Source: a virus
Strand: one strand, 5' to 3'
IMG/VR virus record: IMGVR_UViG_3300042509_001620
Span: 1-42,165 of that record
Length of the DNA: 42,165 nucleotides
Every line of letters starts with the position of its first letter. Position 1 is the first letter of the stretch. Positions 11,875 through 42,165 of this stretch are shown piece after piece. The notes under the pieces were generated by a model that searched no databases, was not told the DNA's origin, and was given only the letters and a program-made list of their open reading frames with translations. The position numbers and the translations under genes are program-made.

Positions 11875-13306
11875 GTTTTACTGCTACGTCTGTAGTAATT
11901 AATGCATACTTACTTAGTGGACCTCTAAGATTAGCTTGATCAACAACTGCTTTAACCATTCTTGGAGTATTATTATCTTGAAAAAATATTCTGCTAGTTA
12001 TTGCTTGAAAATTATCTGGAGTCATGTTTTGAAGCTGTGATCTTAGTTCTGTAATTCTAGATTCTATCTGAGGACTGCTACTACCAGATCTTACTGCAGC
12101 TTCTAGTGCAGTTAACTCTGACCTCATTTGTTTTGACATTGCATTAAAAACTTTTGAATTTATAACTGAAGTTCCGTCATACTGGGATTCAAAAGCACTT
12201 TCTAAAATTGATTTCATACTTTTAACTTGGTCATCTTGAGAATCTACTCCAGATAATATTGACTGAAGAGCAGCAGAACCTCTAGCACTAACTTTTCCTT
12301 GTTTATCTAAGAAAGTTGTTGTTTTAAGTGTTTCAGTTAAATCTTCAAAATTAACAATTCCACCATAAAAAGCTTTTTGTTCTTCGTCTAATCCTTGCAT
12401 TAAAAACTGTGATTTTAAAGAATCTGATTTGTTTATGTTAGCAAAATTAGGATCGTTTATTAGTCTTTCGTAGTTCTGAGTAATCTGAGAAAGATCTTTG
12501 GAAACATTAAATATTTTTACATTTGTTTCATTTAATGAATCACCTTGTATTCCAGCTAGTCCTAACATTTCTTTTAATTGGTCTCCAGCTAAAGAAATAT
12601 CCCTAAGACCTATTGCTCCTCTAACTCTTTTTCCAACTTTAGAAAATAATGAACCAGTTTTTCCGCTTTGAAGAGATTTAATTAACTCTTCTCTACCAAA
12701 TATTCCACCAACATCGTCAGACGTAAGACTAAACAATTCAGATATTTGCTTAAAAGACAATGCAGCACCTTTGCCTGGATCACCAACAAAAACTTTTAGT
12801 AAGTTAAATTCACCGTCATCTGGAATTACAACACCTTCTTTAATCTTATTACTTATTTGAGTATTGCCTTGTACTGATCTAAATGTTCCAATCTCAAAAT
12901 ATAATTTAGATGGATCGGATATTCCAAGCTCTGTTAATGTATTTTGTGATAGAGTTCCAAGTCTTTTTTGTATGTCGATAAGCCTTTGTTCCATTCCACC
13001 AAGACCCCTCATATTTAATGATGAGTCTTCAAGCCTTCCGGTTAACCTTGTAAAAGTCGTAACCCCATCTGTACTGGCTTTATTAAAAGCTTCTCTTACT
13101 GTAGAAAAAGCTTCACCTGTTCTAGCGTAAACAAACTTAACAACACCATCAATAACATCTGCTTTTACAATTCCACCTAGACCATACATCGTTCCACTTA
13201 GAGCTCGCTGATGCATAGCTAGGTTAACTGGATTGTAAGTGGTGTCTGGCAATGAGTTAAGAGACACATTAGTATTTGCTCTTTGCCCTTTAAGAAAATC
13301 AAACAT
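11759..13306 (-). CDS. N-terminal part of a frameshifted tape-measure-region protein
   Basis: A 515-codon frame starting MFDFLKGQRANTN at ATG 13306, with AGGT about 10 bases upstream and one base after the previous gene's TAG. It reads as good protein up to about ..KYALITTDVAVK. The last 35 or so residues are unusually rich in Ser, Arg, Lys and Cys, which looks like out-of-frame translation. The +1 frame (8452-11874) takes over at the homopolymer at 11876-11879. A one-base correction restores one frame from 13306 to 8452 with an integral 1618 codons including stop. Either the gene is truly interrupted, it uses programmed frameshifting, or the base is a read error. The protein is probably a structural or tape-measure-type component; no family motif was recognised. 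Confidence 0.65.
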   Translation of the reverse strand: MFDFLKGQRANTNVSLNSLPDTTYNPVNLAMHQRALSGTMYGLGGIVKADVIDGVVKFVYARTGEAFSTVREAFNKASTDGVTTFTRLTGRLEDSSLNMRGLGGMEQRLIDIQKRLGTLSQNTLTELGISDPSKLYFEIGTFRSVQGNTQISNKIKEGVVIPDDGEFNLLKVFVGDPGKGAALSFKQISELFSLTSDDVGGIFGREELIKSLQSGKTGSLFSKVGKRVRGAIGLRDISLAGDQLKEMLGLAGIQGDSLNETNVKIFNVSKDLSQITQNYERLINDPNFANINKSDSLKSQFLMQGLDEEQKAFYGGIVNFEDLTETLKTTTFLDKQGKVSARGSAALQSILSGVDSQDDQVKSMKSILESAFESQYDGTSVINSKVFNAMSKQMRSELTALEAAVRSGSSSPQIESRITELRSQLQNMTPDNFQAITSRIFFQDNNTPRMVKAVVDQANLRGPLSKYALITTDVAVKRETAIMRTNKFYKLSSSGRSKLKSFLRSTCSSVSWKCF

Positions 13307-29426: not shown

Positions 29427-30347
29427 TTACTCATATGAAACACCATCCTTCTTTATGTACTCTTTCTCGTCTATCCCATAAAGAGTGGTAACTAATCCAG
29501 AGCAGTATTTGTTAATTTTTCTAGTTTTATCAATATTGTCTAAGTATACAAATTCTTCATCTTCATAAAATAAAGCGATTGAATTATGATCTTCAGATCT
29601 TTTTTTAGCTATTTCATACCATATATCTTTTCCGTATTCTTTTTCTCCATCTATCCACTTTTGTGTTGGACCTACAGTATGACGTAAATAGTTTCTTATT
29701 AATAGTTTGCTATGGTTTTTAACCATCTTCACAGCATGAAAATATGGTTCTTTTCCAGGAAATAGTGGAGAGCCGGATGGAAATACTATAATATCTCCTG
29801 CTTTAGGTTTATAAAAAATTAAATCGTCTTTTACTGAAAATACAATTTCCCCTCCTTCGTATTCATCATTCAAGTAAGTCGTACATGTCAATAAAAATTT
29901 TTCTCCAGGCCAATACCATTCTCCAATAGCATAGTCTGTATGAAATTGCATTGTTTTTCTCTCCCCAGTATCAACATCTTGGTCGTACCTAGCAAAATTC
30001 GGGCTATCTATATAGCTATTTTCTGGAAGAGATATATTATATTTTGTAATGTAGTTTGTAATTGCTGCTATATTTGCTTGACTTACTATATCAACTAAAC
30101 CCTTTTCCTCAATGTTTAATTGAATATCAAAATCTGATTCATAGAAACTTGCAAGAGTATCGTGACTATTTATGTGGGAATATTTTCCAAATATAAACCA
30201 ATCTTTCCATTCACTTATTACTCCGTTTGCATTATGCAATTCGGAATTACGCATAGCTCTTGCTAAGTTATCAGCGTATGGAAGTAACTTATTGTATACA
30301 TGTATGTATGGATATATCTCTTTATAACTTAAATCTAAATTAAACAT
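29427..30347 (-). CDS. 2OG/Fe(II) oxygenase (306 aa)
   Basis: The start is set at ATG 30347 ([15 protein letters not shown]), with AAAGGA upstream and just after the previous stop; a longer frame to 30449 would overlap the neighbour and lacks a ribosome site. The double-stranded beta-helix core is visible: FHTD with H136 and D138, [27 protein letters not shown], distal H204 (FHAVKMV) and R218 for 2-oxoglutarate. A 110-residue N-terminal helical region and a 75-residue charged C-terminal tail flank it. The enzyme should couple oxidation of 2OG to succinate and CO2 with hydroxylation of an unidentified substrate. It is the last oxygenase before the structural genes. Confidence 0.8.
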
Positions 30348-30349
30348 TT

Positions 30350-30895
30350 TTAATCCTTTAAAGTATAAAAATTTGTGTAAGAATACTTTACGCCAGAAAT
30401 AATAGGAATAGTAGAGTGAGTTTGAAGTGCGTCGAATAATATAACACAATTTTTTTTAGGTTTTATAAAAAAATACTTTTCTTTATTATTATTATAAAAA
30501 ACTAAATCTCCACCAGAATAATTATCATTGAAATAAAAAACAGAACTTAAATGAACTGTTTTTTTATTATTTAAAATAACCCATTCATCTTTGGGTTCCC
30601 AGTCTTTATGTATATCTATGAACTGACCCTCAACATACCTGACTATTGACTGCCCAGTATATGATTCAACTTCTTTGGAATAATGAGCTTTAATGTGGTT
30701 CTCTATTTTTTTATCTATTTTTTTTATAAAATCATAATAAGCAAAACTTTCACCTATAGGAAAATATCGCAATGTTGAATATGTTTCTTCTTTTGCAGAA
30801 GGATTTAATTGAAAATTTAAATCATGAAAAGAAGACTGAATTAAATTAAGCTTATCTTCTTCTATTAAATTTTCTACGATTACTGTTGGGTACAT
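30350..30895 (-). CDS. Small prolyl-4-hydroxylase-like 2OG/Fe(II) oxygenase (181 aa)
   Basis: A compact 181-residue single-domain protein. DIHKDW gives H96 and D98; [16 protein letters not shown] is the conserved strand pair. H160 (LQTHSTIP) completes the Fe triad and K170 takes the place of the more common Arg for 2OG binding, as in true prolyl 4-hydroxylases. A GGAGA lies about 10 bases before the ATG. No signal peptide, so cytoplasmic. Very Lys/Asn-rich, AT-rich coding compared with the structural genes. Substrate unknown: protein residue or glycan hydroxylation are the main options. Confidence 0.8.
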
Positions 30896-30898
30896 TTT

Positions 30899-31480
30899 TT
30901 ATAAAGTCTCCCATCTTAAATGTTTTCTAAAATCATTCATTGGAATTACATTTGGATCAACCCACCAATCCTCATGTTTTTCTCTTACGACTAGCGCATA
31001 TCCTAAACTATCTAATATTTCTCTTTGAGCATCTCTCATGGCAGAGTTTCTAAAATACATATTAGCATCGTGTTCAAAGGTAATAATAGAGAATCTATAT
31101 TGTGTTAATGGAAGAGATATTAAACCAAGTAAGCTCAGATAATGATTACCAAAAGGTCTTCCATCATGCTGATATCCCCCATCTATATCTACCTGTAGAT
31201 AATCAATCTGTTTTGGAAAATTATTATTTTCAAAATATGATATATAATTAAATTCAAGAGCATCTCCAAAACAAGGATTTTTTCTATTAGTTTGAAACTC
31301 AAGTTTTCTATCTTCTGATATCTCAAAAGATACGCCACTCCAATCATAGTCTGATTCAAGATAAAATGTATTACTTCCTAATTTAGAATCAAAAGCTCCT
31401 AATTCTACATATACTCCATCTTTTTTTCCATTAAAAATTTCTATTACAAATTTTTCTTGAGAAGAATTTCCTCTATACAT
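30899..31480 (-). CDS. FkbM-type SAM-dependent methyltransferase (193 aa)
   Basis: A 193-residue protein with the class I SAM-binding motif VYVELGAFD (23-31), an acidic end of the following strand (SGVSFEI, E53), and IDYLQVDIDGG (92-102), the equivalent of the FkbM-family DYLKIDIEG motif. These enzymes usually O-methylate sugars or small polyketide-like molecules. The gene lies between 2OG oxygenases in the same operon, which suggests the methyl group and hydroxyls may go onto the same target, for example a glycan. It is shorter than many FkbM proteins but contains the whole Rossmann core. No convincing ribosome site precedes ATG 31480. Confidence 0.75.
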   Translation of the reverse strand: MYRGNSSQEKFVIEIFNGKKDGVYVELGAFDSKLGSNTFYLESDYDWSGVSFEISEDRKLEFQTNRKNPCFGDALEFNYISYFENNNFPKQIDYLQVDIDGGYQHDGRPFGNHYLSLLGLISLPLTQYRFSIITFEHDANMYFRNSAMRDAQREILDSLGYALVVREKHEDWWVDPNVIPMNDFRKHLRWETL

Positions 31481-31495
31481 ATAAATTTTTCGATT

Positions 31496-32302
31496 CTACA
31501 ATGTGTATTGTTTATTTGTTCTTTTTTTATTAACATCGTTAATTATCTCTGGCATCCAAAACTTATTTGGATTTTCTTGCCCCACTATTTCTTTCTGCTC
31601 AAAAAAGGTGCCATAACAAGCAATGCTCAAGTAAGCATATCTCTCTCCTTTAATTACTGGAAGCACTTCATGTCTACCAATATAATTAGATGGATATATT
31701 GCTACTGATCCTGCTTTTGGTTTCCAAGTTGCTGGAACATTTGGAAAGTGGATCTCTCCACCAGTATATTTGAACACATCTAAATCCTCATCTGAGTCAA
31801 CACAGTCATTTAAATATAAATTAATACTAGAGCTATTGTGCATAGACACTTGACTGCCGGTTGGCTTACCCCATTCGTGAGGAACCTGATTGTCGCAGTG
31901 CTTACCTATGCCCTGCCCATTTTTGTATTGAACTATGTGACCGTTTGGTCTCCACCATGATGTTGTTGCTGCGTCTGGAAAATAACAGCAATACTCAACT
32001 AGGGCATCATAGATTGCATCTTCTAGTGAATTTATAAAATCTATGTACTTCTGAGGAGCTTGAATACCTGACTGGTTGCCTTTGGTGTCCAAAAATCTTT
32101 GAGGAGCTTTTTCTATATCTGATAAATTAAACTTAAAACCAGTTACATTTACTGCATACCTTTCGCCATCTTCTTCATGATAAGTAAAAGTTTTCTCTTC
32201 GTTAATGCGAAGCCAATTAATATATTCAAAAAGAAAGTTCTGGTCTACATCAATTACGTCTTCACATATTACTACGCCCATTCCAATGTGTCTTGATTTC
32301 AT
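31496..32302 (-). CDS. 2OG/Fe(II) oxygenase, WW-GHI subfamily copy A (268 aa)
   Basis: Member of the four-gene paralogous series in this operon. SWWRPNGHIVQY precedes the HxD (H135, D137 in KHCDN). Then come LYLNDCVD, TGGEIHF, KPKAGSVAIYPSNY, distal H211 (GRHEV) and R221 (GERYAYL). AAGGAT precedes the ATG at 32302. The C-terminal tail FWMPEIINDV recurs in copies C and, in part, B. The short stretch between its stop and the methyltransferase (31481-31495) holds no gene. Cytoplasmic 2OG-dependent hydroxylase; substrate unknown. Confidence 0.8.
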   Translation of the reverse strand: MKSRHIGMGVVICEDVIDVDQNFLFEYINWLRINEEKTFTYHEEDGERYAVNVTGFKFNLSDIEKAPQRFLDTKGNQSGIQAPQKYIDFINSLEDAIYDALVEYCCYFPDAATTSWWRPNGHIVQYKNGQGIGKHCDNQVPHEWGKPTGSQVSMHNSSSINLYLNDCVDSDEDLDVFKYTGGEIHFPNVPATWKPKAGSVAIYPSNYIGRHEVLPVIKGERYAYLSIACYGTFFEQKEIVGQENPNKFWMPEIINDVNKKRTNKQYTL

Positions 32303-32310
32303 AACTATCC

Positions 32311-33192
32311 TTAATAATTTGATTTCGTAATATAAAATTGTGGTGAATCTTCTTTGTATCCAGATTCTAATAAATGCTTCTTTAAATCTTCCCTAAGTGT
32401 AGGCATGTAAACATTTGTAGCTTTTTTTGACAATTCTGGGTCCTTTAATGGATCTGCTACATATTCGTGAACTGCTGGATTTGGAGTTCCCTGACTATAC
32501 CATCCAAGATAACTGTACCTAAAACCTTCCTTAACTGGCTTAACCTCATGGGCAGCCATGTAGTTGGATGGAAAAAATAATATATCACCTTTTTTTGGAG
32601 AATAATCTATGTCTAAATAATTAAAATAATGATGTCCACCAATATAATTTTGACCGTTTAATTGTTCTTCGGTATCAATAGAATCATTAAAGTATACTAA
32701 ACTTGTTACAACATTCCTCAAAGCTAATTGATCTTGAGGTTCTAATACGCCGTATATATAATCACCACTAATATCGGAATGGGAACCAAGATAAACATTT
32801 TTTGGATATTGCAATATGTGACCTTTAACTTTCCACCATACACATTTGTAAGCTAATGGAAATAATTCAAAATATTGCAACAAGCATTTGTCTTTTGCTG
32901 ACTCTATAAAACAAAAAAGATCAAGTAAATCTTCGTTGTCTTTGTAGTGTATAGCACTAGCTCTTTTTGGCATTAAGTCAATGCTATCCCTATTAAAGAA
33001 GTACCCACTTTTATTCACGTATATCTCTTCACCAGTTTCAGGGTCTATCCCCGGAGAGTACATCTCGTTCCATTCTTCTTCTATTAGGTTATTTGATCTC
33101 TTGAGTAAATTCTCCCAATCTAAATCTATACAACCTTCAAATACTACAACTCCACCACCTAAGTGTTTTGGTTCCACTTTATTGAATATCAT
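32311..33192 (-). CDS. 2OG/Fe(II) oxygenase, WW-GHI subfamily copy B (293 aa)
   Basis: VWWKVKGHILQY, then H138 and D140 (GSHSDIS), LVYFNDSID, YIGGHHYF, SPKKGDILFFPSNYM, H215 (AAHEV) and R225 (GFRYSYL). The second Gly-Gly strand carries HH where relatives have EI or HL, a local divergence near the active site. The start overlaps the stop of copy C (ATGA), so these genes are translationally coupled. The N-terminal 110 residues align in pattern with copies A, C and D (GVVVFEG..ID). Likely a paralog with a different substrate preference. Confidence 0.8.
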   Translation of the reverse strand: MIFNKVEPKHLGGGVVVFEGCIDLDWENLLKRSNNLIEEEWNEMYSPGIDPETGEEIYVNKSGYFFNRDSIDLMPKRASAIHYKDNEDLLDLFCFIESAKDKCLLQYFELFPLAYKCVWWKVKGHILQYPKNVYLGSHSDISGDYIYGVLEPQDQLALRNVVTSLVYFNDSIDTEEQLNGQNYIGGHHYFNYLDIDYSPKKGDILFFPSNYMAAHEVKPVKEGFRYSYLGWYSQGTPNPAVHEYVADPLKDPELSKKATNVYMPTLREDLKKHLLESGYKEDSPQFYITKSNY

Positions 33193-34106
33193 AATCTTCC
33201 AATTTCTTCATTGGTATTATTGCTTGTCATTGGCCTGTTAGCGGCTTCAGTTAAAAGTGACATTAACTCTGGATCTGTATTTGCATGTTTTCTTTCTATT
33301 GCCTCCAAATAGTCATTAACTATATCTGGCATCCATACTTGCCCGCTATCCATTACTTCAGAAGGCTGTCTGATATTTACGCCTCTATTTGGATCACTTG
33401 ATCCATGTGCAAAATAGCCAACATAAGCGTATCTTTCTCCCTCTTTACATTCCATAACCTTGTGTGTTCCTAAGTAATTAGAAGGAAACATTAAAACGTC
33501 TCCAGCTTTTGGGAAATAAGTAAATTTAGCGTAAGGAAAAACTATTTCACCGCCTACGTAATCATGTTTATCTTGAATCTCACTAACGGAATCATTAAAA
33601 TAAATAAGACCACCTAAAACATTTCTTATAGCTAACTGTTGATCGGGTTCTGCTCCTGGTTGGTAGTTAACATCATTGTCACAGTGCTTGCCAAATCTTG
33701 CACCTTTTCCATACCCCACTATATGACCTTGAGTTCTCCACCATAAACAAGTAAGCATCATGGGAAATATCTCTATGTATCTAATCATGCAGGCGTAGAG
33801 GGCATCCTCACATGCTTTAAAGAAATCAAAATACTCTTGACCCAACCCCTCGTGCATAAAGTTCATAATATGATTAGATGCAATTTCTACATCTTCTAAA
33901 GTATACCTATGTCCACTTCTGTTGATTGCATACAAGGGATTACCTAAATCGTCGTTAATAAAAGTAAAATCATCCTTTAAAGCCTGTAGGCGTACGCTTT
34001 TAGCAAAATCTAATATATAACCATGATCTTGCATTGGAAGTACATTCTTAAAAAGAACAATTCCCATATCATGCATTTCTATATTTTCTTCTTTTATCTC
34101 AAACAC
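33189..34106 (-). CDS. 2OG/Fe(II) oxygenase, WW-GHI subfamily copy C (305 aa)
   Basis: LWWRTQGHIVGY, H141/D143 (KHCDND), GLIYFNDSVS, VGGEIVFPY, PKAGDVLMFPSNYL, H215 (GTHKVM) and R225 (GERYAYV). It starts at a GTG at 34106 that shares its base with the TAG stop of copy D (TAGTG) and has AGGT upstream. QVWMPDIVNDY near residue 260 matches FWMPEIINDV in copy A. About 45 extra residues at the C-terminus are polar. All metal and cosubstrate ligands are present, so it should be active. Confidence 0.8.
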   Translation of the reverse strand: MFEIKEENIEMHDMGIVLFKNVLPMQDHGYILDFAKSVRLQALKDDFTFINDDLGNPLYAINRSGHRYTLEDVEIASNHIMNFMHEGLGQEYFDFFKACEDALYACMIRYIEIFPMMLTCLWWRTQGHIVGYGKGARFGKHCDNDVNYQPGAEPDQQLAIRNVLGGLIYFNDSVSEIQDKHDYVGGEIVFPYAKFTYFPKAGDVLMFPSNYLGTHKVMECKEGERYAYVGYFAHGSSDPNRGVNIRQPSEVMDSGQVWMPDIVNDYLEAIERKHANTDPELMSLLTEAANRPMTSNNTNEEIGRL

Positions 34107-35218
34107 TATATCAACCTAGGTTCTGTTCCGCATGGCCCTTCTGGGAAAGCATTATCTGATTGTTTTAATTCCTCTTGTTTATCAACTTCAACGATATCAT
34201 GACTTTGTGAGTATTGAGTGACTTCTCTACCCTGGTAAACTGGATTCCACCCAGCCTCTACTCCAAATTCTGCTGATCTGTTTTCCCATCTTGAATAAGG
34301 CGTTCTGCAATACATTTCGTAATCGTCATAAATATTATTGAACCACACAGGGGGACACCACTCAAAACTTTCTGATGGTTCAGATATCACCACATTGGCC
34401 GATATGTCAGACGATCCTTGACCGAAAAATGTTAGATAGGAGTATCTAACTCCGTTACCCATTCTTCCTACATCGTGTGCTGCGACGTAGTTTGTCGGAA
34501 AGAATATAATATCTCCTTTTTGAGGCTTATAAGAAACCCCTAAATGAACAAATCTTAGATGTCCACCAGTAAAGTTTCTGCCATCTAGTTCGCTTTCATC
34601 ATCGACGCAATCATTCAGATACAACAATGCTCCACAGGTCTGCCTAGAGGCGACCATGCCCTTAGGCATGTATCTAACGCCATTAGTCACTTTGTAATTT
34701 GTGTCGTTATCAGCGTGGCACCCTAGTATTCCACCATCACCATACCTAAGTATATGACCTCTAGTCTTCCACCAAATAGACCCAATCATTAATGGGTAAT
34801 AATCTATGTATTTAATTAAACCTTTGTATATTTGATCTTCTAAATAAATAAAGAAATTTTTTACTTCTTCTTCAGTTTTAGGGTTTACTGGATCTAATAT
34901 TCTTACTGGAGCTGCTGGAACATCTTCCATTCTATATTTAAATCCGTCTTCATTGATTCCATATGTAACGCCATCTACTTCTTTGTATGACCATCTATTT
35001 TTATGTGCTTCTTCAGCTCTTGAATCTATGTGGCCAAGAATTAAATCTTGGTCTATCGTAAACGCATTTCTAATCACAACTATACCAGGTGCTAATTCTT
35101 CGGTTTCAAAATCAGCTATTTCTTTTATGGTTGCTTCATCAAAATGAGGCGATACCGGATATGCAGTACTGCTCATTCTTGATTCATCTTTTTCAAAAAA
35201 AGAACTACTATCTTCCAT
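34106..35218 (-). CDS. 2OG/Fe(II) oxygenase, WW-GHI subfamily copy D (370 aa)
   Basis: The longest of the four paralogs. An extra 35-residue N-terminus (Ser/Asp/Glu-rich) and a 70-residue C-terminal tail (YSQSHDIVEVDKQEELKQSD) flank the same core. IWWKTRGHILRY, H168/D170 (CHADND), ALLYLNDCVDD, TGGHLRF, KPQKGDIIFFPTNYV, H248 (AAHDV) and R258 (GVRYSYL) are all present. The start overlaps the TAA of the peroxidase-like gene (TAATG). An internal ATG at 35173 (MSSTAYPVS) could be an alternative start. Function as for its paralogs; substrate unknown. Confidence 0.8.
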   Translation of the reverse strand: MEDSSSFFEKDESRMSSTAYPVSPHFDEATIKEIADFETEELAPGIVVIRNAFTIDQDLILGHIDSRAEEAHKNRWSYKEVDGVTYGINEDGFKYRMEDVPAAPVRILDPVNPKTEEEVKNFFIYLEDQIYKGLIKYIDYYPLMIGSIWWKTRGHILRYGDGGILGCHADNDTNYKVTNGVRYMPKGMVASRQTCGALLYLNDCVDDESELDGRNFTGGHLRFVHLGVSYKPQKGDIIFFPTNYVAAHDVGRMGNGVRYSYLTFFGQGSSDISANVVISEPSESFEWCPPVWFNNIYDDYEMYCRTPYSRWENRSAEFGVEAGWNPVYQGREVTQYSQSHDIVEVDKQEELKQSDNAFPEGPCGTEPRLI

Positions 35219-35835
35219 TATCCCAATACCTCATCTATAGCTTGCCTAATAGTCCACCCTGCACCTTGAATTCTAGGAGTTTCATCTAGTGGCATGTCTT
35301 GCCAGTTAAACCTAGATATCATCATTCCATCTCTGCTAATTAAAAACTTTTCATAGTTATGGGAGATTCTTGCCATTGCTTGGCCTGCTAAGTTTTGACC
35401 CTTTTGAGCCTCTTCACTACCGTCTGCTGCAAAGTCTGAATAAGCTCTTTTTTCATAACCCTTAAGAAAGGCAAAGGCTTCGTGTTCATTTTTTCCATTT
35501 ACTTCAACTTTTTCAAAAATAGGAAAAGTAACAAAAGAATAATTTTGTTTAATAAAATCTGCTATTTCTTCATTAGTACCAGGATCCATTGACCCAAACT
35601 GATTGCAAGGAAATGCTAATACAGAAAAACCTCTATCGCTAAACTCCTCATGTACGGACTGCAATTGTCCAAGTTGCCTACATGTTCTTGCGTATGACCA
35701 TAATTTTGAACACTGGGGTTCATAACCAAATTTGCTGGCTATATTTACGACTAATGTTATCTTGCCTTTAAATTCAGAAAGATAATCTTCTCTTCCATGT
35801 ATTGAAGAAGCTGAAAAATTGTAAAAAGACATCAT
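35218..35835 (-). CDS. Glutathione-peroxidase-like protein lacking the peroxidatic cysteine (205 aa)
   Basis: The thioredoxin-fold glutathione peroxidase family is clear from VVNIASKFG (29-37), LAFPCNQFGSMDPGTNEEI (73-91) and NYEKFLISRDG (160-170). Family members normally have ASKCG or Sec at the third motif; here position 36 is Phe (TTT codon). The usual Trp of WNF is His159. Gln79 and Asn160 of the tetrad remain. C42, C52 and C77 could form another redox centre. It also has an insertion of about 10 residues after that site. So it is unlikely to be a normal peroxidase. The gene sits between oxygenases and may be a redox partner or a structural scaffold. The second ATG (35832) has the better-spaced GGAG. 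Confidence 0.75.
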   Translation of the reverse strand: MMSFYNFSASSIHGREDYLSEFKGKITLVVNIASKFGYEPQCSKLWSYARTCRQLGQLQSVHEEFSDRGFSVLAFPCNQFGSMDPGTNEEIADFIKQNYSFVTFPIFEKVEVNGKNEHEAFAFLKGYEKRAYSDFAADGSEEAQKGQNLAGQAMARISHNYEKFLISRDGMMISRFNWQDMPLDETPRIQGAGWTIRQAIDEVLG

Positions 35836-36149
35836 TTAACTCCAATAAATGAAGTCGTTAGATACTGGTCCATCTTTAATATTCCAGCTATTTTATTATT
35901 TTCTATTAGATCTGCAGTTATTGATACGGTTGTTTTAATAGGAAACTCTGTTTGCACAAAACAATGAAAAGTATTATCTACAAAACTAGCATCATAGATT
36001 ACTGAAGAGCCTTTTTCGTGAGACACTGATCCGGAAAAAAAAGAATTTGTTGCCTCTATATTCAATGCATAATCTTCTTCGCCAAATGGGGTATTTACAG
36101 ATAGTGTCCATTTTCCTAAAATGTCTAATGAATTATTTACTTGAGTCAT
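35832..36149 (-). CDS. Small beta-barrel (lipocalin-like) protein (105 aa)
   Basis: Start set at ATG 36149 (MTQVNNSLDILGKWTLSVNT); a longer frame to 36200 would overlap the upstream gene. The protein is almost all short beta strands with alternating hydrophobics: GKWTLSVNTPFGEEDYALNI, SFFSGSVSHEKGSSVIYDAS, TTVSITADL, NKIAGILKMD. The pattern of G-W near the start, TPFG, and repeated G-x-V/I strands resembles small bacterial beta-barrel domains of unknown or binding function. No active-site residues stand out. It overlaps the peroxidase-like gene (ATGATGA) and may bind a product or substrate of the neighbouring enzymes; that is speculation. Confidence 0.55.
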   Translation of the reverse strand: MTQVNNSLDILGKWTLSVNTPFGEEDYALNIEATNSFFSGSVSHEKGSSVIYDASFVDNTFHCFVQTEFPIKTTVSITADLIENNKIAGILKMDQYLTTSFIGVK

Positions 36150-36177
36150 ATAATAATTATACCATATAATAATATTT

Positions 36178-36849
36178 TTATTCGTAGAAAAAACTTCCAT
36201 TAGATAACGCTAAGGGCGGATTGTCTTTATGCCAAATGTTAATAACAAGAACTTGCCTTATACCAGATTTTGACCCTACAGTGTTATGTAACACATGACC
36301 GGCGTCAAAAAAAATAGCTCTATTTCCTTTGTAGGTTATTTTTTCTCTATCCCTTTTTAAAGATATATATTTTTTAATATATTTTTTTTCTAGTATATTT
36401 TTTTTGCCATCTTCTAATGCTTTTTTGTGTATTTCTAAAAATCCACCATCTTTATTTTCTTTACCATAAAAAACACAGCCATATATTGGTCCAGTAAAAA
36501 TTTTTGACTCTGAGTAAAGGAATGTGTCTTCATCCACATGAACATCTAAGTATTGTCCTGGAAGATAAGTTCTTGTCCAATACTCAAATCCCAGAATATC
36601 ATCTAGATTCCAAATCATTAAATCTTGCCATAGAGATTGAATAACTTTTTTCTTTAATGTGTTAGCTGGAGTTCTCCACCAACCATCCCAAAACATATAT
36701 GGGGCGAAACAATCGCTTTTCTCATTGTGGTATGAATTTAGATGTTCTGCTATTTTTTCTCCATGATTCATTAGTTCAGGAAAAAAAGATGAATCATTTA
36801 ATACCTGATCATACAAGCTGTCGCTTAACGAGTTATCTTTTACTAACAA
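36178..36849 (-). CDS. 2OG/Fe(II) oxygenase with non-ATG start and duplicated 5' end (223 aa)
   Basis: TTG at 36849 is the best available start; the frame contains no ATG before residue 27. The core shows YLDVHVDED (H104, D106), YGCVFYGK, GGFLEIHKK, KGNRAIFFDAGHVLHNTVG with H188, and GIRQVLVINIWH with R198. A Lys-rich insertion of about 25 residues between strands is unusual. The first residues, LVKDNSLSDSLYDQVLNDSS, look like real coding. The 5' end lies in a 53-bp tandem duplication (36833-36938). The upstream copy gives only a mini-frame, TTG followed by LVKDNII and stop. Coding is very AT-rich. Confidence 0.75.
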   Translation of the reverse strand: MLVKDNSLSDSLYDQVLNDSSFFPELMNHGEKIAEHLNSYHNEKSDCFAPYMFWDGWWRTPANTLKKKVIQSLWQDLMIWNLDDILGFEYWTRTYLPGQYLDVHVDEDTFLYSESKIFTGPIYGCVFYGKENKDGGFLEIHKKALEDGKKNILEKKYIKKYISLKRDREKITYKGNRAIFFDAGHVLHNTVGSKSGIRQVLVINIWHKDNPPLALSNGSFFYE

Positions 36850-36938
36850 TTTATCTACTAAATTCTTTCTACTAATTATATAATATTATCTTTTACTAAC
36901 AATTTATCTACTAAATTCTTTCTACTAATTATATAATA
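36833..36938. repeat. 53-bp tandem duplication over a translation start
   Basis: Two identical adjacent copies, 36833-36885 and 36886-36938, each containing the TTG start and first codons of the oxygenase gene. The identity extends three more bases. 53 is not a multiple of three, so the copies are in different frames and the upstream one is a short dead-end frame. Confidence 0.9.
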
Positions 36939-36950
36939 TTAATAATAATA

Positions 36951-38153
36951 CTATTTATTTTCTTCAGAAAAATTTATTGGTTTTGTAGTTGAAAAAAGAT
37001 ATTCTTTTACCAATTCTCTTTCTTCTTTTTTAAGAAAACTAAAATATTTTATTATTACATCATCTACACTGTTATTTTTATGTTTAAGTTGTTCATAACC
37101 TGGAGATTCATAAATAATTTTTAATATATCAGCGCATGAAGTTGTATCTGGATCTAGAACATTTTCTAACAAAAAACCACTAACAATAGTTTCAAAGAAT
37201 TCATTTTCTTTATTTAACATAGAAGAAGGAATTTCTATTTCTAATGGATAATTATTATTTAATGAATAAAGAGTTTTATATCTTATCTTCGACATAAACC
37301 ACTGCTTGAACTTTGGTGGAATTTCTGAAGGTTCATTTATTGATTGTCTTGGATTTTCATCTCCGTTAAAATAGTACTCAAGCACTGTACTTGGCTGGTA
37401 GCTGACTATTTCTTCAAGCGCATCTTCTGGGATATCCCAGTCATCAAAAGCTGCCTTACACTTTAGGGCTATTGTATCATTAGAATTCCATGGCTCATTA
37501 GCAAGCGCTGCCCATTGATATGCCATTTTTAATATGTGCGGAAAAGTTTGAGACATAAAAACTCTTCCCGGCCAATCTTTATATGCCCTATCATTCATCT
37601 CACCATGAGTTAACTTATTTATATATAAGTTAGACATAGACGGAAGAACTAATTGCCACCCTATGACTGTATCGTTACCTAAATAAGTTCTATCTAAAAT
37701 ATCAGAAGCATTTTCTTTGTTTGCATCTAGAAAAGGCATAGAAATATAGTGATCATCTATTACATCGCACCTTCTTTTAGGATCTACTGCAGAACCAAGC
37801 CACTCACCGTGCTCTTCCTTAGATATGAGACCAACTGAGTTGTGCAATATGAATGTGTGAATATTTTTACTATATTCACCAGAAAGAATATCGTCAAGAG
37901 CCTCAAATGTTTCTGTGTTTATATCTTCAGAGTTATTCTCTGAAATAATTCTAAGAGTAAACTCTGACCTTAAAGTGTAGATTTTAGTAAAAGCTATTAA
38001 AGCTTTATTCCCTATCTCATAGACGTCATAGTGTTCATACTCCCTTAAGCCACTTGGATGAACTGTATATATTGCAAAATCTTCCTTGATAGAAGTAATA
38101 GCGTAACAAGCATAAAGAGATGGGTCATAATCTTCTGTATTTTTATAGATCAT
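36951..38153 (-). CDS. Hypothetical protein (400 aa)
   Basis: A 400-residue acidic protein (MIYKNTEDYDPSLYACYAIT) with no recognised motif. The N-terminal 130 residues are beta-rich (FAIYTVHPSGLREYEHYDVY); the middle has IGWQLVLPSMSNLYINKLTH, KDWPGRVFMSQTFPHILKMA and several Trp; the C-terminal half is helical and charged. No signal peptide or membrane segment. The phrase IGWQLVLP loosely recalls the GWELILQQ of the DUF6065-like protein encoded upstream, which may be chance. It follows two small proteins in a tight operon and precedes an oxygenase. Function unknown; possibly connected to the oxygenase block. Confidence 0.6.
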   Translation of the reverse strand: MIYKNTEDYDPSLYACYAITSIKEDFAIYTVHPSGLREYEHYDVYEIGNKALIAFTKIYTLRSEFTLRIISENNSEDINTETFEALDDILSGEYSKNIHTFILHNSVGLISKEEHGEWLGSAVDPKRRCDVIDDHYISMPFLDANKENASDILDRTYLGNDTVIGWQLVLPSMSNLYINKLTHGEMNDRAYKDWPGRVFMSQTFPHILKMAYQWAALANEPWNSNDTIALKCKAAFDDWDIPEDALEEIVSYQPSTVLEYYFNGDENPRQSINEPSEIPPKFKQWFMSKIRYKTLYSLNNNYPLEIEIPSSMLNKENEFFETIVSGFLLENVLDPDTTSCADILKIIYESPGYEQLKHKNNSVDDVIIKYFSFLKKEERELVKEYLFSTTKPINFSEENK

Positions 38154-38160
38154 TTAAAAT

Positions 38161-38409
38161 TTACTCTTCCTCTGACTTTACAAGTATTTCAAATTGTAAT
38201 ATTTTTTCTTCTACTTTTTTAATTTTTAACAGCAATTCTTTAATATAAAAATGTGACATTCTATCTTCTTCTGGAATAAACTCTTCTGCATTAAAGTCTT
38301 CTGGGTCTATTCCTACTGCACAAAGCCTTTGAACTAAGTCCATTTCAAAAGATTTTCTTGTTTGTTTGTAAACTGATAATTTTTCTTCTGAAGAAAGTTT
38401 AAATTCCAT
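38161..38409 (-). CDS. Small helical protein, paralog 2 (82 aa)
   Basis: 82 residues, MEFKLSSEEKLSVYKQTRKS. It shares with its 89-residue upstream neighbour the start M-x-F-x-x-S, KL.VY.., and G-I/M-DP...F......F (VGIDPEDFNAEEF). Helical, charged, Glu/Lys-rich, likely dimerising. It overlaps the upstream paralog's stop by 11 bases. Cytoplasmic; function unknown. Probably arose by tandem gene duplication. Confidence 0.6.
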   Translation of the reverse strand: MEFKLSSEEKLSVYKQTRKSFEMDLVQRLCAVGIDPEDFNAEEFIPEEDRMSHFYIKELLLKIKKVEEKILQFEILVKSEEE

Positions 38410-38668
38410 CTTCTTCTTTTTCTAGTAGATTAATTTTATTTTTTATAGACAAATAAGAAATAGCAAAATCATTGATAACTATTTGGATATCGTAATTATG
38501 AACTGATTTATCTATTGATTCAAAAGAATTGATAAATTCATTGAGATCAAAAAAATCAGGATCCATTCCTATTTCTAATACTCTAGAAAGTATTTCATGC
38601 TCTATTACGTTTATTCTTTTGTTATAAATTTGTAATTTTTGCTCTTTTGAAACATTTGAAAAATTCAT
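38399..38668 (-). CDS. Small helical protein, paralog 1 (89 aa)
   Basis: 89 residues, MNFSNVSKEQKLQIYNKRIN, with IGMDPDFFDLNEF matching VGIDPEDFNAEEF in the downstream 82-residue protein. Two helices flank this short loop. A candidate promoter dyad precedes it at 38705-38724. Function unknown. The pair together may be a small assembly or regulatory module; nothing in the sequence shows DNA-binding. Confidence 0.6.
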   Translation of the reverse strand: MNFSNVSKEQKLQIYNKRINVIEHEILSRVLEIGMDPDFFDLNEFINSFESIDKSVHNYDIQIVINDFAISYLSIKNKINLLEKEEDGI

Positions 38669-38704
38669 ATGAAACTACCTTACTTTGTAATTAAAATTTT
38701 TAGA

Positions 38705-38724
38705 TTATTACATTATAGTAATAA
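38705..38724. promoter_or_regulatory. Perfect dyad centred on a TATAAT box upstream of the small-protein pair
   Basis: On the minus strand TTATTAC-TATAAT-GTAATAA: a perfect 7-bp inverted repeat flanks a consensus -10 box (38717-38712), about 44 bases before the ATG at 38668. No good -35 is evident. It could be an operator over a -10 element or simply an AT-rich hairpin. Confidence 0.35.
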
Positions 38725-38738
38725 GATATAATCATTAA

Positions 38739-39446
38739 CTAATTGGAACTTGGTTCCTTTAGCTTTAATAAGCCATCATTTTTCGGACCTATGGAATTGC
38801 CATTTTCGTCTAAACCGGTTCTTATCCCGTTCATCCAGGTCCATGGTTGTTCGTGAAGCTTCTTCATTTTTGCGTCCCCGTATGATTGACGTTTAGCCAT
38901 TAGTTCTGGTTTATCCCAAAGGTTTTCAACTACTAATTCTGCATTTTCTAAGAGATCATTTTTATAAATATTAAAAAACATAAACGGCATTCCTGCTTCA
39001 AATTTAACTGGTTCACCAATCTTAGTTATCTTCCAGTTCATATTGAATTCATCAGGCCACCAAGAACTAGGTATTGAGGCAGACAAAGGTGATGCTCCAT
39101 CAATAAAATAATTAGGAGATCCGGTTATCCAAGTGTCGTAACTTTCCTCTGTATTAATAGCCCATCCCGTAGCAAAGGAAATAATCCCTATTATCGAAGG
39201 GATCACGATTGGTCTTCCATCCAAGAACTCACCCTCTAAAACTCTAGGAACAGTATTTCCACCATCCCATTGAATAACAACATCTTGTTGAAGAATTAAT
39301 TCCCAACCATTAACGTTGGCAGCTGACATAGGCAGACAACGGTAAGCATGTTTGTTGTAAGTTTCATCCATCCAGTCTCTTTTTAATCTAGACTGACTAA
39401 TTTTTGGTGGATTTTGATGAGTTTTAGTTAAGGTTATTTTAGTCAT
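38739..39446 (-). CDS. DUF6065-like protein (235 aa)
   Basis: Start set at ATG 39446 (MTKITLTKTHQNPPKISQSR), one base after the upstream TAA; a longer frame to 39491 would overlap the oxygenase. Residues 24-63 carry DWMDET...AYRCLP followed by ANVNGWELILQQDVVIQWDG, the pattern I associate with DUF6065. The rest has FATGWAINT, PSSWWPDEFNMNWKI and a Trp-rich C-terminus. No catalytic residues are known for the family. Co-transcription with the oxygenases suggests a shared pathway. Family call is from memory of the motif, so moderate. Confidence 0.65.
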   Translation of the reverse strand: MTKITLTKTHQNPPKISQSRLKRDWMDETYNKHAYRCLPMSAANVNGWELILQQDVVIQWDGGNTVPRVLEGEFLDGRPIVIPSIIGIISFATGWAINTEESYDTWITGSPNYFIDGASPLSASIPSSWWPDEFNMNWKITKIGEPVKFEAGMPFMFFNIYKNDLLENAELVVENLWDKPELMAKRQSYGDAKMKKLHEQPWTWMNGIRTGLDENGNSIGPKNDGLLKLKEPSSN

Positions 39447-39447
39447 C

Positions 39448-40131
39448 TTAAAGTTTTTTAAGGGTAACTCCAGATTCTTCCTTAGTTCCATCGCTAGTAT
39501 TTAGTGCTTGATGATATTCTTTATTGTTATCTTTATAATCAAACATGGTAACAGCAGAATATTTAATTCCTTCAGTTACCGGCATCGCTCCGTGGGCAAA
39601 TATATAAGTAGATGGGAAAAAGAGCACGTCTCCTTTTTTGGGTTTAAATTTTAAGTCAATATAAGGAAACCATAGTTCTCCCCCTTCATAGTCGTCATTT
39701 AGGTATACTAGAGAAGAAAGGGTACATGTATATGAAAAACCGTGATCAGTGTGAACTGAGAAATGTTGTCCAACTTCATATCTTACAAAGTTGATAGATT
39801 CCATAAATTCCATTTTAAAATTATATCTAGCTTCATAATCTGCTAGACACTTTTTTAATATTGCGTCTGTATCATCATAAATATTTTTAATTTCTTTTAA
39901 ATCCTCAGGAAGATGAGGCCAATGGGCTGGACCAACTTTTAGGTCAACACAATCTCTATAGTCAGGCATAGGCGTATTGTATCCAACCGTAGCGGTATTC
40001 CATTTAAAATATTCATGATCACTATCTTTTAGAGTTTCTTCTAATCGATTAACGAGATTAAGGTCTTCTGACATTACATCTCTATATAAAATTATACCAA
40101 ATTTTGGATCTTCTACATTATAAATTTCCAT
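39448..40131 (-). CDS. Prolyl-4-hydroxylase-like 2OG/Fe(II) oxygenase, first gene of the leftward operon (227 aa)
   Basis: ATG 40131 (MEIYNVEDPKFGIILYRDVM) has GAGGA five bases upstream; a longer frame to 40179 has no ribosome site. The core is FSVHTDHGF (H127, D129), LVYLNDDYEGGELWFPY, KPKKGDVLFFPSTY, H180 (FAHGAM) and K190 (GIKYSAV), the Lys type typical of prolyl hydroxylases. It is the first gene after the candidate leftward promoter, so probably the best-expressed oxygenase of the block. Substrate unknown. Confidence 0.8.
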   Translation of the reverse strand: MEIYNVEDPKFGIILYRDVMSEDLNLVNRLEETLKDSDHEYFKWNTATVGYNTPMPDYRDCVDLKVGPAHWPHLPEDLKEIKNIYDDTDAILKKCLADYEARYNFKMEFMESINFVRYEVGQHFSVHTDHGFSYTCTLSSLVYLNDDYEGGELWFPYIDLKFKPKKGDVLFFPSTYIFAHGAMPVTEGIKYSAVTMFDYKDNNKEYHQALNTSDGTKEESGVTLKKL

Positions 40132-40163
40132 TTTTTCCTCAATACTAATCGGACTTTTTGTTA

Positions 40164-40172
40164 TGATATAAT
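40164..40172 (+). promoter_or_regulatory. Extended -10 promoter for the rightward oxygenase operon
   Basis: TG-A-TATAAT gives an extended consensus -10 (TATAAT 40167-40172), about 45 bases before the ATG at 40218. A weak -35 would lie near 40144. It overlaps the leftward promoter. Confidence 0.5.
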
Positions 40173-40198
40173 ATAGCACAGGGCACAGGGCAAATCAA
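40170..40198 (-). promoter_or_regulatory. Leftward promoter of the oxygenase-to-tail operon
   Basis: On the minus strand TTGATT (40198-40193), 17 bases, TATATT (40175-40170): a good sigma70-type arrangement about 39 bases before ATG 40131. Its -10 overlaps the rightward -10, so the two promoters may compete for polymerase. The spacer is largely a 7-bp tandem repeat. Confidence 0.5.
40176..40189. repeat. 7-bp tandem repeat in the promoter spacer
   Basis: GCACAGG is present twice in tandem, followed by GC. It makes up most of the 17-base spacer of the leftward promoter; with one copy the spacer would be 10 bases. Confidence 0.7.
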
Positions 40199-40217
40199 GC
40201 TACATTGGAGTAATAAA

Positions 40218-40838
40218 ATGGATGAATCTCTAATAAAACCAGGGCACTTTGGGAAAGAAATTAACAACATTAAATTATATAAAAATTTTGTTGACTTAGA
40301 AGATCTTAAAATTATACAAAAGTTTTTACCTACAATTTCTGAATGGATGGATGCAGGGGAAAATCAGTATGCTGAAGATGGAACCTGCACATATGATGCT
40401 TCTTATTGGTCTAATAGACAATGCAGTTGGGACATACTTGAAAGAATTAATATTGACATTTATAATATTATAGAAAAATATATTCAAAAAATGAAAAAAT
40501 GTTTAGAAGATTCTTTTAAAGTAGAACTGTCGACAAGACCACCAGTGATAATAAAATGGCGTCCTGGGATGGAGCAGAGACCCCATGCCGACAAGCAGAT
40601 GAACGATGGAAGACCTAATCCTTTTCCTACGTATGATATAAATTCTTTAATTTACTATAATGATGACTTTGAAGGTGGAGAGCTGTACTATCCAGATTAC
40701 GATTTAGTCGTAAAGCCGGAACCAGGCTTAGCGGTTGCTCACCCTGGGGACATTAATTACCTTCACGGTGTAAAGTGTATTATCTCGGGAGAAAGATATA
40801 CTACACCATCTTTTTATACAATAACTAAGGTTTTATGA
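40218..40838 (+). CDS. 2OG/Fe(II) oxygenase, first gene of the rightward operon (206 aa)
   Basis: 206 residues, MDESLIKPGHFGKEINNIKL. RPHADKQ gives H123 and D125; SLIYYNDDFEGGELYYP and LVVKPEPGLAVAHPG are the strands between; H183 (YLHGVK) and R193 (GERYTTP) complete the site. GGAG lies 8 bases before the ATG. KPEPGL is shared with the partial oxygenase at the right edge, so these are paralogs with the TauD-like gene inserted between them. The next gene's ATG immediately follows this TGA. Confidence 0.8.
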   Translation: MDESLIKPGHFGKEINNIKLYKNFVDLEDLKIIQKFLPTISEWMDAGENQYAEDGTCTYDASYWSNRQCSWDILERINIDIYNIIEKYIQKMKKCLEDSFKVELSTRPPVIIKWRPGMEQRPHADKQMNDGRPNPFPTYDINSLIYYNDDFEGGELYYPDYDLVVKPEPGLAVAHPGDINYLHGVKCIISGERYTTPSFYTITKVL

Positions 40839-41627
40839 ATGATTAAACAGGCTTATATGGATGAATTATCATTTGATGATATTGAAAAAAATATTGATAA
40901 GTACTTTAGTTTATTTTTAAAATATGGTTTAGTATGTTTTAGGAGAAGTTTTTTTGATATTTTTGAGCAGGAAAAAATTACTAAATTATTTGCTAAAAAA
41001 TTAAATTGCAATTACATTTCTCCACAAGACAACGAAGATCATTCTTTTACTTTTGATAAAAATATTAAATTAATGTCTAAAAATGAAATTTTTATTCCGT
41101 GGCATCTGGAACATCTTAAAAAAGAACACCCTCAGGTAGCAGCTTCTTGGAATATGTTGTCTTTTGAATGTGAGACAGGTGTAGGAAATACAGGTTTTGT
41201 AAGTGCAATTGATTTGTATAACAAAATGCCTGTTGAATGGAAATCTTTCTTAGACGTGTGCGACGTAATGACTGAAGGTGTATATATTTTACCAAGAAAA
41301 TGTATACAAAATCATAGAATTAAAGATGAAAAAATTATTAGACTTTCTCCAAACTATCCCATTTATGAAGATGTTCTTTATTCTGTAAATAAAGAACATC
41401 CATCAAAAAAAGACATTAAATTATTTAATGAAATTGTTGTTTGGTATAAAGAACAAGTAGAGGATAATGTAAATATTCAAAATTGGTGGGAGTGGTCTAA
41501 TGGCGATTTGTTAATTGTAGACTTAAGCTATATGATTCATGCGGTAAAAGGTGGTTTTACTCCTGGCCAAAGAATTTTTTCTAGATACTGGATTTTCGTT
41601 AATGAAACAGATTATACTCTAGGTTAA
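40839..41627 (+). CDS. TauD/TfdA-family 2OG/Fe(II) dioxygenase (262 aa)
   Basis: A different branch from its neighbours. PWHLEHLK gives H89 and E91 (HxE/D motif), NMLSFECETGVGNTGFVSAI is the strand that follows, and IHAVKGG (H234) with GQRIFSRYW (R245, R249) is the C-terminal TauD signature. Family members oxidise small molecules such as sulfonates, betaine or amino acids. ATG 40839 directly follows the TGA of the upstream gene, so coupled translation is likely. Substrate cannot be read from the sequence. Confidence 0.75.
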   Translation: MIKQAYMDELSFDDIEKNIDKYFSLFLKYGLVCFRRSFFDIFEQEKITKLFAKKLNCNYISPQDNEDHSFTFDKNIKLMSKNEIFIPWHLEHLKKEHPQVAASWNMLSFECETGVGNTGFVSAIDLYNKMPVEWKSFLDVCDVMTEGVYILPRKCIQNHRIKDEKIIRLSPNYPIYEDVLYSVNKEHPSKKDIKLFNEIVVWYKEQVEDNVNIQNWWEWSNGDLLIVDLSYMIHAVKGGFTPGQRIFSRYWIFVNETDYTLG

Positions 41628-41664
41628 AATAAAATGGACAAGAGGTTAAAATAAAATGGACAAG
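41621..41664. repeat. 22-bp tandem duplication over a translation start
   Basis: AGGTTAAAATAAAATGGACA plus AG occurs twice (41621-41642, 41643-41664). Each copy contains an ATG GAC AAG. The first makes only MDKRLK and a stop; the second starts the oxygenase. The junction of the copies creates the AGAGGT ribosome site. Confidence 0.9.
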
Positions 41665-42165
41665 ATTTATATTATAAAAAATATTTTAGATAAAAAAGAT
41701 TCAGAACAAATTACATTTTATTTAAAAAATACCCCAGTTATACTTGATGAAACTGGATATTCTCCATATGGAGTATATACTGGAAACGGAAGTGAAACGT
41801 TGCCCAACTTGCTTGAAGTCTACTATAATAAAATAAAAAATATTATAGAAACTTCTTTTAATTGTAGCGTTTATGATGAGGGATTATGTAGTGTAGTAGA
41901 GATGAAGACTGGTGATTCAATGCCAGTGCATCTTGATCATGGATCCGCTCAAAATGAAAAGGTTGGCTTTAAAACAGGAGCTGGACATCCATCAAGAGAT
42001 ATTAGTTCAGTCCTTTACTACAATGACGATTTTGATGGCGGAGAAATATACTTTCCAAATCAAGATCTTTTAGTAAAGCCAGAACCTGGATTATTTGTTT
42101 GCTTTCCAGCTAATGACGACTTTCCTCATGGAGTCATGGAAATAACCAGTGGTTATCGTTGGTGC
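41656..42165 (+). CDS. Partial 2OG/Fe(II) oxygenase at the right edge
   Basis: 170 codons visible, MDKIYIIKNILDKKDSEQIT. H92 and D94 (PVHLDHG), SVLYYNDDFDGGEIYFP, LLVKPEPGLFVCFP, H158 (FPHGVME) and R168 (SGYRW) are all inside the window, so the catalytic core is almost complete and only the last strand is missing. Closely related to the 206-residue gene two genes upstream. Its start is the second copy of the 22-bp tandem duplication. Confidence 0.78.
   Translation, partial: MDKIYIIKNILDKKDSEQITFYLKNTPVILDETGYSPYGVYTGNGSETLPNLLEVYYNKIKNIIETSFNCSVYDEGLCSVVEMKTGDSMPVHLDHGSAQNEKVGFKTGAGHPSRDISSVLYYNDDFDGGEIYFPNQDLLVKPEPGLFVCFPANDDFPHGVMEITSGYRWC

Follow-up and report, generated by a model that had tools for sequence, protein, structure and literature searches.

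Gene content of the oxygenase island

The stretch of DNA analysed here (the window) is the 42,165-base virus record IMGVR_UViG_3300042509_001620 from IMG/VR, which carries at positions 29427-42165 an island of eleven open reading frames (ORFs) resembling 2-oxoglutarate (2OG)/Fe(II) oxygenases, here named ox1 to ox11. Eight of them lie on the minus strand (29427-40179) and three on the plus strand (40218-42165); ox11, the last ORF of the island, is interrupted by the end of the window. Related loci were gathered by a scan with ox6, which yielded 79 family loci and places ox6 in all 79 by selection. The island is composed as follows, with bit scores or E-values for the family named, occurrence among the 79 loci and, in several rows, the number of aligned sequences that keep the catalytic residues.

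29427-30347, minus strand: ox1, a variable 2OG/Fe(II) oxygenase resembling prolyl 4-hydroxylases (P4H); PF13640, 34.4 bits; 15/79 loci; the ATG at 30347 is a likelier start than the extent in the ORF list (29427-30449)
30350-30895, minus strand: ox2, a variable 2OG/Fe(II) oxygenase; PF13640, 46 bits; catalytic residues 5/5; 12/79 loci
30899-31480, minus strand: FkbM-like methyltransferase, variable; PF05050, E 0.015, below the cut-off; 12/79 loci
31496-32302, minus strand: ox3, tandem paralogue, core; PF13640, 40.8 bits; residues 37/37; 68/79 loci
32311-33192, minus strand: ox4, tandem paralogue, core; PF13640, 42.4 bits; 76/79 loci
33189-34106, minus strand: ox5, tandem paralogue, core; PF13640, 37.7 bits; 70/79 loci
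34106-35218, minus strand: ox6, tandem paralogue, core; PF13640, 37.5 bits; residues 48/48
35218-35835, minus strand: GPx-fold protein with Phe36 in place of the peroxidatic Cys/Sec and an invariant Cys42; PF00255, E 8.8e-30; 75/79 loci, a count that may include a second GPx-like gene
35832-36200, minus strand: p122, small conserved protein with no convincing family match; 68/79 loci
36178-36849, minus strand: ox7, a divergent 2OG/Fe(II) oxygenase; PF13640, 19.8 bits; phrog_274, E 7e-4; 50/79 loci
36951-38153, minus strand: p400, variable, no family match; 26/79 loci
38161-38668, minus strand: p82 and p89, two small variable genes; 30/79 and 17/79 loci, respectively
38739-39491, minus strand: DUF6065 protein, core partner of the module, with a dUTPase-like model; PF19541, 148 bits
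39448-40179, minus strand: ox8, a P4H-like 2OG/Fe(II) oxygenase, core, with Lys as the 2OG residue; PF13640, 50.7 bits
40218-40838, plus strand: ox9, P4H-like, core, divergently transcribed here; PF13640, 20.4 bits; phrog_61, E 1e-16; 65/79 loci
40839-41627, plus strand: ox10, a variable TauD/TfdA-type 2OG oxygenase; PF02668, 40.6 bits; residues 11/11; 28/79 loci
41656-42165, plus strand: ox11, a 2OG/Fe(II) oxygenase; PF13640, 38.1 bits; residues 21/21; 44/79 loci

The island encodes a set of 2OG/Fe(II) oxygenases

A sequence-only reading of the window had proposed eleven 2OG/Fe(II) oxygenase genes in this region, each with an HxD or HxE motif, a distal histidine and an arginine or lysine for 2OG, and profile searches bear this out. 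All eleven match oxygenase profiles and nine exceed the Pfam cut-offs: eight with PF13640 (ox1-ox6, ox8 and ox11) and ox10 with the TauD family. The PF13640 matches of ox7 (E 0.0016) and ox9 (E 0.001) stay under the 27-bit cut-off, and both genes matched PHROG families. The iron triad HxD/E...H and the 2OG-binding R/K are nearly invariant in the family alignments of the ten genes counted, the residues of ox1 being read from the window sequence alone. Departures among the counted rows are limited to the arginine of ox4 (42/43) and ox7 (32/34, with H/D/H in 34/34) and to a histidine and the lysine of ox8 (37/38 each); ox9 keeps its residues in every counted row. Because these catalytic residues persist in almost all aligned rows, the island oxygenases look like functional enzymes and not relics. 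Genes ox3 to ox6 are tandem paralogues that share 30-35% identity (E 1e-34 to 1e-50). Several oxygenase matches (30350-30895, 36178-36849 and others) carry the PHROG labels 'DNA endonuclease (V)' and 'ferrochelatase', which look misleading and are probably mis-assigned, because the aligned stretch is the oxygenase core.

Collagen-type P4Hs bind 2OG through a lysine, as ox8 would. The model of ox8, the single oxygenase modelled, has a predicted local distance difference test score (pLDDT) of 89.7 and a double-stranded beta-helix fold. The 50 Foldseek rows listed for it comprise 48 prolyl hydroxylases and two PolD entries, the first row being the viral prolyl hydroxylase vCPH (E 1.7e-11). Structural alignment places the model close to 6f0w (Z 19.8, 2.9 Å, 193 residues aligned) and to 3gze, an algal enzyme with a (Ser-Pro)5 peptide (Z 19.3, 2.4 Å, 173 aligned). 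Compared with the PDB as a sequence profile, ox8 scores best with BaP4H-type enzymes (E 8e-7), followed by PiuC, LH3, a PKHD-type oxygenase, P3H1, vCPH and TM-P4H. The predicted fold of ox8 is nearest to that of prolyl hydroxylases.

Conservation of the island in a family of large phages

Records of the family reach 210.8 kb, and all 22 large records searched hold 4-9 PF13640 matches. The core, running ox8, DUF6065, GPx-like, ox6, ox5, ox4 and ox3, is complete in 49/79 loci and has the same order on a single strand in 46 of these 49, the exceptions being L030, L033 and L072. The island is a stable trait of this large-phage family, to which variable members (ox1, ox2, the FkbM-like gene, p400, p89 and ox10) are added in 12 to 28 of the 79 loci. 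Neither the island (megablast) nor ox6 and DUF6065 (tblastn) found a match among isolated phages in 50,697 phage records; ox8 matches cyanophages at <60% identity. An additional PF13640 gene lies distant from the island in the family record G001 (104236-104844), and G004 and G010 have a PF13640 match of the same profile span in a 203-aa frame.

A proline-repeat fibre protein is encoded upstream of the island

Upstream of the island, outside the window, relatives encode a small protein composed of tandem Pro-Pro-[Phe/Tyr/Trp]-Phe units (PPxF). The records L001 and L010 match the window proteins at 99-100%, and both carry 15 PPxF units; in L010 the gene lies ~2.7 kb past ox11. This candidate substrate was invisible to the sequence-only reading because the gene lies past the window end. 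Other relatives with a whole repeat have 9-27 units. A search by DNA pattern in 50 of the 79 family records found the repeat in 42, and the contigs of the remaining eight end short of ox9 or no more than 3.8 kb upstream of it. Across 92 distinct arrays with 1140 units, neighbouring units differ by 1499 synonymous versus 291 non-synonymous codons, a count conditioned on the peptide motif, which suggests that the repeat peptide is kept while its codons vary.

Fusions to recognised fibre domains point to the location of this protein. The repeat of L038 leads without a gap into the fibre chaperone Peptidase_S74 (E 2.9e-11), a junction shared by L044 (also read as L104), L045 and L158. In more distant phages PPxF forms the C-terminal tail of an FN3-domain fibre, with fn3 above its cut-off in four of the six proteins tested. 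In the short version that belongs to the window (L010, a 118-aa frame) no domain was recognised. Judged by these fusions, the PPxF protein is a virion fibre component in the relatives. A Hint/intein-like stretch, below the Pfam cut-offs, follows the repeat in L192.

Two other elements of the fibre region were considered as general components of the system and rejected. The fibre module past ox11 in G001 encodes a Trp halogenase as well as two collagen-like proteins. The collagen-like GPT/GPA stalks were dropped as a general substrate because they are restricted to a subset of the relatives, and the halogenase was dropped as a general partner, being present in one record. The halogenase gene lies between the G001 fibre genes (L096:16597-18114; PF04820, 319 bits), and a halogenase is likewise found beside fibre genes in Synechococcus phage S-SRM01.

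The PPxF pattern also occurs in 11 bacterial contigs, three of which (L240, L243 and L248) have oxygenases in the stretch examined as well. L240, L243, L247 and L248 belong to metagenome bins (Verrucomicrobiales, Gammaproteobacteria, Chitinophagaceae), and the bacterial-bin contigs with PPxF may be phage contigs. We claim no host, because the three oxygenase-bearing contigs sit in bins of different phyla and are possibly phage contigs themselves.

Oxygenases accompany proline-rich fibres outside the family

A scan of viral contigs for the PPxF pattern gave at least 120 stretches, and all PPxF figures below are among the matches listed. Loci with the GPT collagen pattern served as the control; a random-pattern control gave 3 loci and was not used. 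Comparing 50 PPxF records (L118-L168 without L135) with the first 50 control loci, we found PF13640 in 43/50 (42 above the cut-off, up to 11 copies) versus 9/50, and one of the nine positive controls belongs to the family of the window. The control contigs G074, G076, G078, G079, G091 and G097 have one or two PF13640 genes each, and these are possible true pairs of collagen and collagen-type P4H. Our own profiles, built from the oxygenase families of the window and liable to miss other oxygenases, detected an oxygenase in 85/120 PPxF stretches versus 15/119 control stretches. At least three oxygenases were present in 53 PPxF stretches versus 1 control, and DUF6065 in 57 versus 1. Wherever PPxF and DUF6065 occur together, DUF6065 lies downstream on the same strand (57/57), at a median distance of 2.9 kb. 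A tail-sheath test covered five family records and every one of the 50 PPxF records that reaches 40 kb (20 in all): the tail sheath of the window was found in 0/20 of the latter versus 5/5 family records, its absence being counted on fragmentary records, and DUF6065 was present in 17/20.

Fibre loci selected by a domain motif allow a closer comparison. Among 120 stretches selected by an FN3 motif, itself derived from repeat-bearing fibres, an oxygenase is present in 10/12 with PPxF versus 8/108 without. The exceptions mostly had other proline-rich tails (FFPFFPP variants, poly-P, mixed PP). Using a proline measure devised after inspecting these exceptions, we found an oxygenase in 16/21 loci with at least 10 prolines per 30 fibre residues versus 2/99 without (Fisher 9e-14); thresholds of 8 and 12 prolines gave 16/24 versus 2/96 and 14/18 versus 4/102. 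A second proline repeat, PPVV, was then examined as a fresh prediction; it is accompanied by an oxygenase in 7/8 loci (~5 distinct fibre proteins) where an FN3-like motif is present in the same frame, and in 16/51 loci with at least eight units versus 4/69 with fewer (p 3e-4). The proline-free GGxF control had an oxygenase in 0/22. The linked fibres share proline and not aromatic residues, because PPVV and poly-P fibres are linked as well and GGxF is not.

Partner genes and neighbouring tail genes

The sequence-only reading had listed an FkbM methyltransferase, a peroxidase-like protein and a DUF6065-like protein as companions of the oxygenases. DUF6065 was recovered far above its cut-off (26.6 bits), the match of the second protein to the GPx profile is firm (102.9 bits), and the FkbM-like match has 15.9 bits versus a cut-off of 22.7. 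We do not class the second protein as a peroxidase: the peroxidatic position is Phe in the window and Phe, Ala, Tyr, Leu or Ser in 39/45 rows, with Cys in 6/45. Another Cys six residues past this site is invariant, and His occupies the Trp position in 43/45. The GPx-fold protein is probably no peroxidase, because the peroxidatic Cys/Sec is replaced. A second, diverged GPx-like gene (24-28% identity) is found between ox8 and DUF6065 in 26 places (L011:4139, L014:5263 and others).

The DUF6065 protein had no PDB match by sequence up to E 0.1. Its model (pLDDT 92.5) has a predicted dUTPase-like fold (Foldseek E 2.6e-5, TMt 0.69; Z 10.7, 4.4 Å, 125 aligned), from which a trimeric adaptor is our guess. 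DUF6065 was found in 22/25 large records tested and splits into two main groups of 25-31% identity, ~3.5 changes per site apart, both of which occur with the module.

Tail genes beside the island, also noted in the sequence-only reading, are confirmed downstream by two tail-sheath-like proteins that match phrog_16991. A 299-aa gene that adjoins the island on the tail side is present in 59/79 loci. The tail region includes four large ORFs of 2486, 1140, 515 and 1614 aa (516-7976, 8452-11874, 11759-13306 and 13308-18152, respectively), none with a Pfam match at E 0.01.

Discussion

We consider, with moderate confidence, that the island hydroxylates prolines of a virion fibre. The core enzymes ox8, ox9 and the tandem ox6-ox5-ox4-ox3 would act on the prolines of the PPxF repeats in the upstream-encoded fibre protein, with the help of O2, 2-oxoglutarate and Fe(II), at a late stage of infection that precedes or coincides with tail assembly. 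The need for several enzymes may lie in the repeat unit, with its two prolines, differing flanking residues and possibly more than one hydroxylation; a division of labour among the enzymes may be supposed. DUF6065 could serve as a scaffold or adaptor, and the GPx-like protein may also have a role. Such hydroxylation would give a fibre tip rich in hydroxyproline, stiffer and more polar, with altered adhesion or protease resistance. The dedicated modification system for a virion protein suggested in the sequence-only reading thereby gains a conserved gene order, conserved catalytic residues, an adjoining proline-repeat fibre and a link that extends to distant phages; the reaction itself is still a proposal.

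A more specific version of this proposal, which we put forward tentatively, is that the fibre is a hydroxyproline-rich adhesin: a Pro-Pro-aromatic tip whose prolines, and perhaps Tyr/Phe, are hydroxylated by a dozen oxygenases with DUF6065 as the adaptor, the same logic extending to PPVV or poly-P fibres of unrelated phages. Such a fibre would be to phages what extensin is to plants or adhesive protein to mussels. Mussel adhesive proteins contain hydroxylated proline-rich tandem repeats. The hydroxyproline-rich glycoproteins of plants and algae, as described in PMC11015965, likewise have proline-rich repeats that are hydroxylated by 2OG oxygenases and form stiff extracellular filaments. The likeness is one of analogy and not homology. 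Collagen-like phage fibres also have a proline-rich repeat stalk, but PPxF is without the Gly-X-Y pattern.

Several observations weigh against hydroxylation of the PPxF fibre. One repeat protein does not account for eleven enzymes, ox7 and ox10 may act on other targets, and association alone falls short of proving an enzyme-substrate pair. PPVV loci taken overall have an oxygenase in 20/120, close to the 15/119 of the collagen control, which counts against a general rule of proline repeats and oxygenases. PF13640 is missing from seven of the 50 PPxF records, among them L124, whose 36.8-kb record encodes a long fibre. The loci counted in these comparisons are not independent by descent and include copies of one phage; moreover, the FN3 motif was derived from repeat-bearing fibres and the proline measure followed the inspection of exceptions. 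For ox8 itself, the two PolD rows indicate a fold compatible with free-amino-acid hydroxylases as well, and PiuC-type enzymes score by sequence.

The foremost alternative, unlikely in our view, is linkage without chemistry: the fibre region would be a hot spot for cargo, where repeats, oxygenases and DUF6065 move as a block while the enzymes act elsewhere. Repeat fibre and oxygenases do both sit in the fibre region, close relatives share the block, and ox1, ox2, the FkbM-like gene and p400 vary as cargo would. Against this alternative, the link recurs in phages that lack the tail sheath of the window and where the oxygenase complement differs, the smallest being one gene beside PPVV or poly-P fibres, and FN3 fibres without a proline-rich stretch have an oxygenase in just 2/99 loci.

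It is rather improbable that the target is a surface glycan or another part of the virion, such as collagen-like stalks, other fibres, Tyr/Phe side chains in the repeat or sugars on which the FkbM-like protein would act. L001 and L010 show no collagen-like repeat within ~3 kb upstream of ox11, and both collagen-like proteins tested are under the Pfam collagen cut-off, although some relatives do have such stalks and one record has the halogenase among its fibre genes. The FkbM-like gene is present in 12/79 loci, and aromatic residues are absent from the PPVV and poly-P repeats that oxygenases accompany. The TauD-like ox10 and the sheer number of enzymes, which suggests several products, speak for additional targets of this kind.

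Auxiliary metabolism, meaning action on metabolites of the host or adjustment of 2-oxoglutarate, is a role suggested for cyanophages in PMC3037559 and PMC9602691 and is quite improbable here. T4-like cyanophages (S-SCSM1, P-SSM2, S-SCSM2R) have many oxygenases of the same superfamily per genome (PF13640/phrog_61): four cyanophages among the nine phage records searched hold 11, 11, 9 and 7 PF13640 matches, and PMC9602691 gives 24 2OG-Fe(II) oxygenases for S-SCSM1. The number of oxygenases is therefore not unusual, contrary to the sequence-only reading; their organisation is, because the cyanophage genes are scattered over the genome, whereas here they form a conserved block with a fibre gene, and the PPxF repeat was found in 0/9 of the records. 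Modification or repair of nucleic acids by Tet/JBP or AlkB-like enzymes can be set aside as very improbable, since the PHROG labels of the 'DNA endonuclease (V)' kind that suggest it are probably mis-assigned to the oxygenase core, the Tet_JBP matches (E 0.008 and 0.086) are far under their cut-off and the nearest folds to the ox8 model are those of prolyl hydroxylases.

The nearest known system to the proposed fibre hydroxylation is vCPH of the Chlorella virus PBCV-1 (PDB 5c5t), a virus-encoded P4H and the top Foldseek row for the ox8 model. It differs in belonging to a eukaryotic algal virus and has 18-22% identity to ox8. We know of no dozen-enzyme island, PPxF fibre or DUF6065 in PBCV-1; the peptides used by Eriksson in 1999 reportedly derive from proline-rich viral repeats. 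The title of that study (Eriksson 1999), as it stands in the reference list of PMC9301287, claims 4-hydroxyproline in viral proteins, and viral P4Hs, that of PBCV-1 included, are treated as known in PMC9301287. According to PMC3368898, bacteria and viruses are said to lack collagen prolyl hydroxylases. In a literature search that listed part of the papers matched and covered few subscription journals, we found no paper on the PPxF repeat or on an island of oxygenases linked to a phage fibre with proline repeats. What is unusual is the clustering of the oxygenases and their pairing with a candidate proline-repeat fibre substrate; viral P4Hs themselves were already known.

2OG oxygenases are common extra genes of aquatic phages, and the function of the viral enzymes is called uninvestigated in PMC9602691 and cryptic in PMC9301287. 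The locus described here pairs a short repeat protein with neighbouring enzymes. If the proposed reaction is true, phages make hydroxyproline-rich adhesive fibres, DUF6065 would gain its first functional context, and many 'auxiliary metabolic' labels would need revision towards virion modification.

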